A stretch of DNA of 64,000 nucleotides from contig JANYJZ010000033.1 of assembly GCA_025358305.1 (NCBI GenBank), positions 62,001 through 126,000 on the forward strand. Reading direction: 5' to 3'. Both the position numbers and the translations under genes were made by a program. Below the pieces are notes generated by a model. It did not search any database and was not told the origin of the DNA. It worked only from the letters and a program-made list of their open reading frames with translations. The DNA comes from Ignavibacteriota bacterium. GTDB taxonomy: Bacteria; Bacteroidota; Ignavibacteria; UBA10030; SZUA-254. Below, piece after piece: positions 1,070 through 51,609 of this stretch; positions within the stretch are counted from its first letter, which is position 1, and every line of letters begins with the position of its first letter.

Positions 1070-2791
1070 TCACCGGTCCAGCGTTTGGTAGTTGATCTGG
1101 TGTGCGTCCTTCGCGACCGCCGCTTCAGTCCCTTCTTTGCTCAAGGCCATGTTCACTGCCCAGTAGAAGATCACGAGGGCGAAGACCGTCACCACGATGA
1201 CGTCGACCCAGTTGGGGATGATGCTCAGTGAGCCTTCCCCGTACCGGCCCAGCCATCCGATAAGCACCAGACCGCCCAGCCAGGGTGCGATCCAGAAGGA
1301 ATTCCGGAGCGTGCGTTGCGCACCGGTCCGAGAACGCAGCACACCCCCGGCGAAGAGCGCAAGACCGACTACCATCGCACAACCGAGCTTCCAGGTGGAG
1401 TCGAACCCCCCCCAGTAGATGATGAGGTTCGCCGAGCAAAAAGCCGCGGGCAGGACGAGCTTCGGCATGGGCACTCGGTACGAGCGCGGCCTGTTGCTGT
1501 CGACCTTGTGGAGCGCCGCGAGCGACACCGGTGCGAAGGCATACATGATCGCCGTGGCTCCGGTGACCACGGTGACGAGCGCGCTCCAGCTTTTGAACGG
1601 ACCGAAGGCAAGCGACCCGATGACCGCCGCCACGAGGATGGAAACGACGGGAACGCCCTTCGTATTTGTCGTGGCCAGCGCGGTCGGCATCTCCCTCTCC
1701 TCGCCGAGAGCGTAGGAAAGACGCGCCGTCGTGGCGACATACACGACGCCCGTGCCCGCCGGTGAGATGACCGCATCGACGATGAGCACCTTGGCGAGCC
1801 AGCCTGCGCCGAGTGCGAGCGCCAGCGTGTACCACGCTCCGTAGTCGGACGGGTCGGTACCGAGCGGCTTTGTCCAGCCGGCGGCAATGTTGGCAGGCTC
1901 GAGCCCGCCGATCATCACGATCTGGAGCAAGGAGTAGAGGACCGCGCCGATCGCCATCGCAGCGAGGATAGCGCGGGAGAGGTCTTTTTTCGGGTTGCGG
2001 GCCTCACCGGCGAGCTGGACCGCCTGCTCAAAGCCCTGCAGAGCGAAGACGACGCCTCCGGTGAGAGCGGCGAAGACGCCGTGGAAACCGAACGGCATAA
2101 ATCCGCCTCCGGCATGGAAATTCTCAGGCTTGAACTGCAGCGCGGCAACGACCGCGACCGCGACGACGGGGACCGCGGTCTTCCAGATCACGACGATGAT
2201 ATTGCTGTCGGACAGGAACTTCGCGCCGGCGAGATTCATCGCGGTGAATATGACCATCAAGACGAGAGCCACCATGATTCCCGTGGCGTTGAGCAATCCG
2301 GCATTCTCACCCACCTTGTTGATCATGTTGAAATTCACGTTGACCCAGCCAACGCTGTTGACATAGGTGACGGCCGCGAGCACCTCGATCGGCGCGATGA
2401 ACACGGCTTGGAGCCAGGCCGCCCAACCGGCCGTGAATCCTGCGATCGGACCGTGCGAGTAGTAGGGAAACCGTGCCGATCCCCCTGCGACGGGGTAGGT
2501 CGCGCCAAGCTCCGCATAGGTCAGCGCCAGGAGCGCCAGCATGCAGGCCGCCAGGATCCAGGACAACACCGATGCCGGACCCGCCATTTCAGCGGCGTTG
2601 AGCGCCCCGAGGAGCCAGCCCGAGCCGATGATCGACCCGAGCGAGACGAACATGAGCCCGTAGAATCCCACCGAGCGTTGCAGGTGGCCTCCAGCAACGG
2701 CAGGCCGTTCGTCCTTTTCTGTACTCATCCGAGAGTTCCCACTTGGTTCGTCATCGATTGAACTTGTAAGCGAATTGGTTACCTGAGACAT
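1070..2791 (-). CDS. APC-superfamily amino acid permease
   Basis: A 573-residue polytopic membrane protein with about 12-14 hydrophobic segments. The first helix carries GSIIGSGWL, the unwound TM1 substrate-binding motif of amino acid/polyamine/organocation permeases. Conserved FALQGFEQAVQLAGEARNPKKD follows in the TM6 region. The start at 2791 leaves a 40-residue polar cytosolic tail; the in-frame ATG at M22 is an alternative. A good promoter lies at 2835-2863. It stands alone as a transcription unit. Substrate cannot be read from sequence; amino acid import would suit the tyrosine-degrading operon downstream, but that link is speculative. Confidence 0.9.
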   Translation of the reverse strand: MSQVTNSLTSSIDDEPSGNSRMSTEKDERPAVAGGHLQRSVGFYGLMFVSLGSIIGSGWLLGALNAAEMAGPASVLSWILAACMLALLALTYAELGATYPVAGGSARFPYYSHGPIAGFTAGWAAWLQAVFIAPIEVLAAVTYVNSVGWVNVNFNMINKVGENAGLLNATGIMVALVLMVIFTAMNLAGAKFLSDSNIIVVIWKTAVPVVAVAVVAALQFKPENFHAGGGFMPFGFHGVFAALTGGVVFALQGFEQAVQLAGEARNPKKDLSRAILAAMAIGAVLYSLLQIVMIGGLEPANIAAGWTKPLGTDPSDYGAWYTLALALGAGWLAKVLIVDAVISPAGTGVVYVATTARLSYALGEEREMPTALATTNTKGVPVVSILVAAVIGSLAFGPFKSWSALVTVVTGATAIMYAFAPVSLAALHKVDSNRPRSYRVPMPKLVLPAAFCSANLIIYWGGFDSTWKLGCAMVVGLALFAGGVLRSRTGAQRTLRNSFWIAPWLGGLVLIGWLGRYGEGSLSIIPNWVDVIVVTVFALVIFYWAVNMALSKEGTEAAVAKDAHQINYQTLDR

Positions 2792-48453: not shown

Positions 48454-50166
48454 CTACTTCCGGTCCCGTTCGCGTGCGACCGTCGGGACGAACGGCACGG
48501 GAGATTCCACCGCCGCGACGCCCACGATGACGCGGGCACGGTTGAGTGCGTCGTCGATATTGCCGAAGATATTCTCCGCTCCAATGATATCGACGAGCCC
48601 CGACTGGTCAAGGGCCATGAGCGGCTGAGTGTGAATGTCCGATATGAGGAACGCGATCGCGTGCTTTGCGCAGTCTGCCCTTACCTTCTTCAAGGTATTG
48701 AGACCGGTGGAGTCGATCGCCGGAACGTTGCGCATGCGGATGATCCGAACGCGGGGGCGCTTTTCGATGATGTTCATCGCCTCCTCGAACTTATAGGCCG
48801 CACCGAAGAAGAACGGTCCGTTCACCTCGTACACCTCGACCCCAACCGGCACTGCCCTTTTTTCAATGCCGTTCGGGTCGTCGCTATCGTCCTCGTCCCG
48901 GAACTCGTTCGTCACGACGTCGACGTTCGTCACCATCGCCATCCTGCGCATGAAGAGGAAGACGGAGAGGAGCATCCCCACCTCGATGGCGACGGTGAGG
49001 TCGATGATCACCGTCAGGCCGAACGTGATGAGGAGGACGATGACGTCGCTCCGGGGGCTCCGGAGGAGCGCCTTGAACGAACGCCATTCGCTCATATGGT
49101 ACGCCACCACGACGAGGATCGCCGCGAGGCACGAGAGCGGAATGAGCGTTGCCCACTTGCCGAGAAAGAGCATGATGACGAGAAGGACGAGCGCGTGGAT
49201 GATGCCCGCGACGGGCGTGCGGCCGCCGTTTCGGATGTTCGTCGCGGTTCGTGCGATGGCTCCCGTCGCCGGCAACCCGCCAAAGAGCGGCGAAGCGATG
49301 TTTGCGACGCCGACGGCGATGAGTTCCATGTTGGAACGGTGCTTGCCTCCGATCATGCCGTCGGCGACGACGGCGGAGAGGAGCGATTCGATGCCCGCCA
49401 GGAGGGCGATCGTGATGGCCGGCTGCGTCAGCTGCCGCAAGGTGGCGATCGAGACGGGGGTGAGATGCGGCGCGGGCAGCATTGACGGGATCTCCCCAAA
49501 CCGGCTCCCGATCGTCTCGACCGGAAGGTGGAAGAGCTGCACGGCCGCCGTCGACAGGAGGAGCGCCACGAGGGATCCCGGGATCTTATGGAAGAACCTC
49601 TGCCACACAATGATGAGCGCGATCGATCCGGCGGCGATCGCAAGGGCATAGACGTTCACCGACGATGAATGTTCGGCGAAGCTCCCCCACTTTTCGACGA
49701 AATCGGCCGGAACGGCCCCCATCTGGAGCCCAAAGAAGTCCTTCACCTGCGACGAGAAGATGATGAGCGCGATGCCGCTCGTGAAGCCGACGATGACCGG
49801 ATAGGGGATGAACTTGATCGCGGAGCCGAACCGGGCGAGCCCCATGACGATGAGCATCACCCCCGCCATCATGGTCGCGATGAGGAGACCGTTCTCGCCG
49901 AAATTCTGGATGACGCCGTAGACGATGACGACGAACGCGCCGGTCGGCCCCCCGATCTGGACCTTGCTCCCGCCGAGCGCGGAGATGATGAAGCCGGCGA
50001 TAATGGCCGTGAAGAGCCCTTTTTCAGGGGAGACGCCGGACGCGATGGCAAACGCGATGGCAAGAGGGAGCGCGACGATCCCCACGATGAGCCCGGCGGA
50101 CATATCGCCGAAGAACTGCTCCTTCGTGTAGTGTTCGAGCGTCGTGAAAAGCTTTGGTTTCAGCAC
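48454..50166 (-). CDS. SulP-family anion transporter with STAS domain
   Basis: 570 residues from a GTG at 50166 (GAGGGAT 5 nt upstream). About 12-14 helices include [40 protein letters not shown] and [20 protein letters not shown], classic SLC26/SulP motifs. The C-terminal STAS domain (about 445-545) includes [17 protein letters not shown]. It probably carries sulfate, bicarbonate or another small anion. Substrate not readable. Confidence 0.92.
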
Positions 50167-50205: not shown

Positions 50206-50234
50206 AAGATACACTAAGACGGGGGAAAAGTCAA
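50206..50234 (-). promoter_or_regulatory. promoter of the SulP gene
   Basis: TTGACT (50229-50234), 17 nt, TATCTT then TGG (50206-50211), a full TAnnTTTG match. Minus strand. Confidence 0.75.
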
Positions 50235-50273
50235 AACGGGGGAAGTGAAACGGGTAAAGGAGGGACCGAGGCC

Positions 50274-50302
50274 TTGACAGAACGGTTCTTTCTCTGTATC
50301 AT
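50274..50302 (+). promoter_or_regulatory. orphan plus-strand promoter
   Basis: Perfect TTGACA (50274-50279), 17 nt, TATCAT (50297-50302). It faces no protein gene on its strand; an intrinsic terminator begins 35 nt after the -10 box. Confidence 0.65.
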
Positions 50303-50308
50303 TCATCG

Positions 50309-50373
50309 TAACATACTCGTCCACCGCTAATCCACAAACGGGCAGGTTCGTTTTGAACCTGCCCGTTGTTTTT
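50309..50373 (+). ncRNA. candidate small RNA (~65 nt)
   Basis: Defined by the consensus promoter at 50274-50302 and the terminator at 50337-50373, between two minus-strand genes. The predicted transcript has a ~28-nt unstructured 5' part followed by the 13-bp terminator hairpin. It contains no start codon with a ribosome site. It lies just past the 3' end of the DEAD-box helicase gene on the opposite strand and upstream of SulP, so it could also act antisense on the helicase 3' end if read-through occurs. Confidence 0.5.
50337..50373 (+). terminator. intrinsic terminator
   Basis: 13-bp perfect stem AACGGGCAGGTTC (50337-50349) with its complement (50355-50367), a 5-nt loop and GTTTTT on the plus strand. 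On the minus strand the stem is followed only by TTTG, so it fits plus-strand RNA best, though it may also help end the helicase transcript. Confidence 0.85.
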
Positions 50374-50394: not shown

Positions 50395-51609
50395 TTACGA
50401 TTTGCGCCGCACAAGATTCTGCCACTTGCGCTTCCAGGGCCGCGTGCTCGTGCTCTCGCGGTCCTTCGACGGGCGATCCGAGCTTTCCCGCGCGATGACC
50501 GGCAGCGAGCTGCCGTCGACGGTCTTCAGCGTGATGCTTCCCTTGTGCGTGAAGAGGATCTGCTTGAAGAACTTCCGTTCCTCCTCCGTCGCGACGAGCG
50601 AGATCGCTTCGCCGCGCTTCCCGGCGCGGGCAGTGCGGCCGACGCGGTGCGTGTAGGATTCCGTGTCCTTCGGGATCTCGTAATTGTACACGTGCGTGAT
50701 ATTGTCGATGTGAAGGCCGCGCGCGGCGACGTCGGTCGCGACGAGCACGCTGAACTTCTTCAGACGGAAGTCCGCGGTGACGCGCTCGCGCTGCGGCTGC
50801 GACATGTCGCCGTTCAAGCAGCGCGCGTGGACGCCCTGGGCGGAGAGTTTCTTCGCGAGCTTCGCGGTGATGTGCTTTCTGTTGCAGAAGACGAGCGCGA
50901 GGTCGCGGTCGTGCTTCAGGAGCTCGATGAGAAGGGGCATCTTCTGATCCGGGTTCGTCTGATAGTACGTCTGACGGAGGAACTCCGGCTTCACCTCGGA
51001 GGCAAGCGCAACGTTCTTCGGGTTGCGCAAGTACTTTTGGCTGAGCTTGGAGATCTCGGCCGATACCGTCGCACTGCACAGGATGGTCTGCCGGGTCGCC
51101 GGCACGTGCTTCAGGATGCGTTCGATGTCCTTGATGAACCCCATGTCGAGCATCCGGTCCGCTTCGTCGAAGACGAGATACTGGATCTCGCCGAGGGAGA
51201 CCGCCCGGCGTTCCAACAGGTCGAGGAGGCGTCCCGGGGTGGCGATGATGATGTTCGTCATCTTCATCTTTTTGATCTGGTTGCTGATCGAGACCCCGCC
51301 GTAGACCGACGTGATGCCGAGGCTCTTTCCTTGCGAGAACTTGATGAACTCGGTCGAGATCTGCGTGCACAATTCCCGCGTGGGCACCAGGACGAGTGCC
51401 TTCAGGCCGTCCCTTCGCTGCATCTTTTCGATGATCGGGATCGCAAAGCTCAGCGTCTTCCCGGATCCGGTCTCCGACTGTGCGAGTACGTCCCGGCCGG
51501 CCATGATCGCCGGGATAAGTTCCAGCTGGATGGGCGTGGGGGTGGTGATGCCGTTCTTTTCCAAGAGCGAGATCATCGGTTTGCTGAGTGCTAATGCTTC
51601 TGATTTCAT
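50395..51609 (-). CDS. DEAD-box RNA helicase
   Basis: 404 residues from ATG 51609 (AAGGAAG 5 nt upstream). Motifs: Q motif TPTPIQLELIP, Walker A AQSETGSGKT, PTRELCTQI, TPGRLLDLL, DEAD in VFDEADRMLDMGF, SAT, VATDVAARGLH, HRVGRTARAGKRG. A short basic C-terminus (RPWKRKWQNLVRRKS) suits RNA binding. RhlE/DeaD-like; probably ribosome assembly or RNA decay at low temperature. A long G/C-rich upstream region (51610-51712) shows only a weak -10 (TATAAA). Confidence 0.95.
   Translation of the reverse strand: MKSEALALSKPMISLLEKNGITTPTPIQLELIPAIMAGRDVLAQSETGSGKTLSFAIPIIEKMQRRDGLKALVLVPTRELCTQISTEFIKFSQGKSLGITSVYGGVSISNQIKKMKMTNIIIATPGRLLDLLERRAVSLGEIQYLVFDEADRMLDMGFIKDIERILKHVPATRQTILCSATVSAEISKLSQKYLRNPKNVALASEVKPEFLRQTYYQTNPDQKMPLLIELLKHDRDLALVFCNRKHITAKLAKKLSAQGVHARCLNGDMSQPQRERVTADFRLKKFSVLVATDVAARGLHIDNITHVYNYEIPKDTESYTHRVGRTARAGKRGEAISLVATEEERKFFKQILFTHKGSITLKTVDGSSLPVIARESSDRPSKDRESTSTRPWKRKWQNLVRRKS

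Follow-up and report, generated by a model that had tools for sequence, protein, structure and literature searches.

Does an orphan promoter followed by a hairpin, lying between two genes that both read the other way, constitute a small RNA (sRNA) gene? The question arises in the window, a stretch of 64,000 nt within the 3.2-Mb genome of an Ignavibacteriota bacterium (G000). Both genes flanking the locus are on the minus strand: a SulP transporter gene (48454-50166), whose closest named protein matches are groundwater Ignavibacteria MAGs, and a DEAD-box helicase gene with its stop at 50395, running upward. The intergenic gap between the SulP start and the helicase stop holds a plus-strand unit at 50251-50373, in which TTGACA-N17-TATCAT is followed by an unpaired stretch of ~28 nt, a 13-bp hairpin and GTTTTT. 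From this arrangement the first-pass annotation had proposed a plus-strand sRNA of ~65 nt. Its reading of the promoter, of the hairpin with a T-tract on the same strand, and of a gap free of protein genes between minus-strand neighbours proved correct. No plus-strand open reading frame in the window, and none with a start codon, fits the predicted transcript. The features considered below are as follows.

50248 to 50258, plus strand: conserved upstream box AAACGGGTAAA, consensus AAWCGGGTAAA, present in 8 of 8 homologues
50274 to 50302, plus strand: promoter TTGACA-N17-TATCAT, with TTGA...N17...TAnnnT retained in 8 of 8 homologues
50309 to 50373, plus strand: predicted sRNA transcript of ~65 nt, deduced from promoter and terminator, with its start placed 7 nt past the -10
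50320 to 50335, plus strand: conserved core TCCACCGCTAATCCAC, unpaired in folds, with AATCCAC invariant in 8 of 8 homologues
50337 to 50373, plus strand: intrinsic terminator, a 13-bp hairpin and GTTTTT, covarying in 8 homologues
50206 to 50234, minus strand: divergent SulP promoter TTGACT-N17-TATCTT, a neighbour outside the sRNA

The promoter elements, TTGACA at 50274-50279 and TATCAT at 50297-50302 with a 17-nt spacer, match the consensus at 11 of 12 positions. TTGACA-N16-18-TATMAT occurs three times in the whole genome and not once in a reversed control. In a 3-kb scan, two promoter-like sites scored at least 9/12 against 0.6 expected, and terminator-like sites appeared at the background rate (2 vs 2.0). 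The hairpin, AACGGGCAGGTTC-GTTTT-GAACCTGCCCGTT at 50337-50367, has 13 perfect pairs and a folding energy of -24.5 kcal/mol (z -7.5), far more stable than shuffled sequence. Its plus-strand tail is GTTTTTC and the minus-strand stem is followed only by GTTTGTGG, so the T-tract favours the plus strand, as the first-pass annotation held. The promoter and terminator matches by themselves are only mildly unusual and constitute weak evidence; the sRNA gene is convincing because it is conserved across genomes, and not from the pattern alone.

The check that the first-pass annotation had proposed, a covariance search in relatives, was run on a set of genomes that included 15 of the host family (G000 among them). 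Combined with synteny and with reading of each match, it yielded the unit in seven other family genomes across six genera, eight genomes of related groundwater bacteria in total. A DNA search with the whole gap gave no real homologue, and a DNA match in G001, inside an NHL-repeat protein gene, was rejected as chance. The first homologue, in G010 (a different genus), was found by comparing SulP upstream regions. It lies on the opposite strand next to a gene other than the helicase and reads TTGATT-N17-TACAAT, TCCACCACTAATCCAC, a hairpin of GGGCAGC paired with GCTGCCC, and a tail rich in T; relative to the window, one base of the 16-nt core is changed and the hairpin differs by compensatory changes. 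A covariance model of these two sequences (R2) then recovered G005, at E 0.008, from a set of weak matches that were mostly coding. The G005 copy has TTTGAT-N17-TACAAT (or TTGATC-N16), then TCCACCAATCCACC, then a hairpin with TTTTTATT. The G005 unit sits between mnmA and pccB, as in the window, and the helicase and SulP are absent from that locus; in both G010 and G005 the unit belongs to the same mnmA-pccB block as in the window, with different adjoining genes.

A three-sequence model (R3) added G009, G001, G004 and G013, all with the unit between dnaG and a gene of ~166 aa, and the G007 copy was found by reading dnaG downstream regions. The unit lies just downstream of dnaG, and co-directional with it, in all five of these genomes. 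It is absent from the dnaG downstream regions of G000, G010 and G005, which were also read, so the unit occupies one of two sites in each of the eight genomes. A three-protein tree, poorly resolved in its deeper branches, groups the dnaG-site genomes as a single clade (support 93), and a single relocation of an intact gene between the two sites would be the simplest reading. Several other matches were rejected, including one in G008 (TTCGCCACTAATCCAC; an ORF end followed by that gene's own terminator), one on contig C7 of G007 (at a gene end; the copy 3' of dnaG was taken instead) and most other weak covariance matches, which fell within coding frames. No recognisable copy was found in the remaining 7 of the 15 family genomes (G002, G003, G006, G008, G011, G012 and G014), some of which are fragmented or have the loci cut by contig ends. 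Neither in these seven nor beyond the family is absence firmly shown, given fragmented genomes and models built on few sequences; outside the family, moreover, AT-rich matches in coding sequence overwhelmed a class-wide pattern search with CTAATCCAC...TTTTTT. In the order-level relatives tested, the regions downstream of dnaG lacked the exact core motif, with one near match, CTAATCTACC, in G016. In G003 (L380, ~1040-1140), CCTCCACTAATCCACC on the minus strand precedes a hairpin with a T-rich tail, with no evident promoter or upstream box; this match is either a decayed copy or chance.

The eight copies share one anatomy. All have TTGA (TTTGA in G005), 17 nt and TAnnnT at near-constant spacing, and the promoter copies at the dnaG site read TAnnTT. 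Sigma-A type TAnnTTTG promoters have been described for Flavobacterium, and the spacing fits that type (PMC9723704). The core follows the -10 at a distance of 20-30 nt, and the unpaired (C)TAATCCAC is common to all eight; CTAATCCAC (50327-50335) is kept in seven, while G005 reads CCAATCCAC and has a core of different length (CCACCAATCCACC). Perfect copies of the core number one in the window and one in the genome. The terminator stem covaries while the core remains fixed and unpaired: five of the seven core stem pairs show two-sided changes across the eight homologues, 91% of cells are paired, and the covariation score was reached by none of 500 shuffles.

Further, the alignment revealed an element that the first-pass annotation did not contain. 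AAWCGGGTAAA begins 26 nt ahead of the -35, and within the alignment, which is anchored on the -35, CGGGTAAA begins 23 nt ahead of it, with at most two changes in any of the eight homologues and near-constant spacing. The best 8-column window of this upstream box carries 9.35 bits, against a maximum of 5.77 in 5000 jittered control alignments. The box lies outside both search models, R2 and R3, and therefore provides independent support for the homologues; the dnaG-downstream locus that the matches share is a second check that played no part in the search. The box is probably an activator site, and its rigidity predicts a specific regulator that could be identified.

These observations suggest that the unit is very probably a real sRNA gene: seven homologues in two gene neighbourhoods, with shared promoter, core and terminator, support the ~65-nt plus-strand RNA that had been proposed. 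The hairpin could instead serve the minus-strand helicase gene, with the plus-strand promoter a chance match. It lies ~28 nt beyond the helicase stop and its symmetry could allow it to work both ways, yet every homologue has its T-rich tail on the sRNA strand, and upstream box, promoter and core are conserved together, in five genomes co-directionally with dnaG. Box, promoter, core and covarying terminator are common to eight genomes; therefore the hairpin is not merely a helicase terminator. The first-pass annotation would have counted conservation of the hairpin solely as the helicase 3' terminator against an sRNA; the helicase is the immediate neighbour of the unit in no homologue, which leaves this explanation extremely unlikely. 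Equally improbable is a conserved cis element, a leader or operator read on the minus strand, of the divergent SulP gene: the element is upstream of SulP in the window and in G010, but SulP's own promoter (50234-50206) is downstream of the element, and no SulP gene adjoins the unit in G005 or in the dnaG-site genomes. Attenuators or leader RNAs that encode a short peptide can likewise have their own promoter and terminator; however, the homologous transcripts share no start codon or reading frame and no co-directional gene follows just downstream in the window, so that this reading is very unlikely as well.

The alternative with the most weight accepts the sRNA gene and has the RNA act by binding protein, as a sponge or ribonucleoprotein of the 6S or Csr kind, and not by pairing with mRNA. 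A short, C/A-rich and nearly invariant core is also explicable as a protein site, and a conserved target for pairing is not demonstrated. Nevertheless, the unpaired plus-strand part has no CsrA-type GGA motif, there is no long 6S-like hairpin, and the purine-rich complement of the core, GGUGGAUUAG, resembles a ribosome-binding site; protein binding is thus an improbable mode of action. Base-pairing seeds are typically recognised by a core that stays fixed and unpaired beside a terminator stem that varies freely. The core is probably such a seed, and a base-pairing mechanism is likely.

The best explanation as a whole is a free-standing sRNA gene with an activator box, pairing in trans at translation starts, to which we assign a probability of about 0.72. 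RNA polymerase would start at ~50309 from TTGACA-N17-TATCAT, probably controlled or activated by a regulator on AAACGGGTAAA, centred roughly 54 bp ahead of the start, and transcription would end at the hairpin and T-tract at ~50373. The resulting RNA of ~65 nt would carry the conserved UCCACCGCUAAUCCAC in an unpaired 5' half, and its 3' end would be stabilised by the terminator hairpin. Its most likely mode of action is in trans and independent of Hfq: by pairing with sequences similar to GGUGGAUUAG, close to start codons or ribosome-binding sites, CUAAUCCACC of the sRNA would block translation starts. A search for Hfq (PF17209) gave no match in G000; the same search gave a match in 5 of 14 known control genomes.

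A candidate target was picked from near-complementary sites in a genome pattern search, with one genome checked. The leader of a lipoprotein operon (G000:C5), whose lipoprotein of 304 aa is encoded at L384:8006-8920, has two sRNA-complementary sites, one over the start codon. Site 1, of 16 nt, is GUGGAUGAGUGGUGGG, with a pairing energy of about -26 to -28 kcal/mol; site 2, ~50 nt beyond, is GUAGAUUAGCGG-AGAA-UGGACG, over the ribosome-binding region and start codon (-25 kcal/mol). The site 2 energy was reached by ~0.1% of random 40-nt stretches of the window and by none of 500 shuffled sRNAs, and none of the 173 start regions listed for 59 genes pairs as strongly. Because site 1 was chosen by genome search and one genome was checked, this envelope lipoprotein leader is held to be a plausible target, at somewhat less than even odds. 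Another pattern-complement match, in C22 of G000, and most such matches in relatives provided no convincing target. The lipoprotein leader (L384, 7881-8006, plus strand) also contains an inverted repeat, AGAGAGAAAGACCCGGG...CCCGGGTTCTCTTTTCTCTCT, which is long and imperfect and bears the first site in its loop. In G013 (L375, ~1108-1150, plus strand), an intergenic GTGGATTAGTGATGAA complementary to the sRNA core lies directly ahead of an intrinsic terminator, and is possibly a sponge or 3'-UTR site, or chance.

In its sequence, the unit has properties of intergenic trans-acting bacterial sRNAs, namely its own intergenic promoter, an apparent same-strand intrinsic terminator and no conserved reading frame. 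Neither the unit in the window nor its homologous loci matched an Rfam family at the gathering score, and the best sub-threshold match, with E 1.2, was to sraA on the opposite strand; this also sets the unit apart from Chlorobi-1, Chlorobi-RRM, Lnt and other Chlorobi motifs, which are candidate RNAs of a neighbouring lineage (PMC2864571). The closest parallel in design is GibS (BTnc035) of Bacteroides thetaiotaomicron, likewise intergenic, with its own promoter and intrinsic terminator and an unpaired conserved 5' seed, in a lineage without obvious Hfq. Bacteroides has been described as lacking Hfq, and GibS pairs with translation-initiation regions, with high affinity in vitro and without protein. 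GibS, however, is described as conserved within Bacteroides, with no sequence or synteny relation to the window sRNA shown, and its seed is in the first 30-50 nt, whereas the fixed core here is just ahead of the terminator (PMC7366714). Similarly, IsrR and other Gram-positive sRNAs with C-rich motifs pair unpaired C-rich regions with G-rich ribosome-binding sites, in the case of IsrR independently of Hfq, but they are longer, have several hairpins, are Fur-controlled and come from an unrelated phylum with unrelated sequences (PMC9410917). Rfp18, a genus-wide sRNA of Flavobacterium in a related phylum, is strongly folded with its pairing region within a stem-loop, and no relation was seen (PMC9723704).

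Small RNAs are hardly catalogued beyond Proteobacteria and the Terrabacteria group, and an Rfam survey lists 16 sRNA families for the entire Fibrobacteres-Chlorobi-Bacteroidetes group (PMC9029176). We found no sRNA described for Ignavibacteria in the literature. The unit very probably represents a previously uncatalogued sRNA gene family of Ignavibacteria, of an ordinary kind. A fuller version is doubtful: an undescribed family under one dedicated transcription factor, acting via the CGGGTAAA box, would have moved intact between two chromosomal sites and would silence operons for envelope lipoproteins by pairing both at the leader loop and at the start codon, in a lineage that lacks Hfq. With control box, promoter, probable seed and terminator visible in eight genomes, this compact unit offers a ready test of sRNA use in a bacterium with no Hfq match.

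The region next to the unit has features of its own. The SulP promoter, TTGACTTTTCCCCCGTCTTAGTG-TATCTTTG, is of Bacteroidota type and diverges from the sRNA promoter at a distance of ~40 bp; a closely similar promoter is present in G008 (L007). Three 12-nt direct repeats, AGACGGGGGAAA, AAACGGGGGAAG and AAACGGGTAAAG, occur at 50217-50259 with spacings of 17 and 14. The last of them (AAACGGGTAAAG) overlaps the conserved upstream box, and the three may be additional regulator sites peculiar to this genome.
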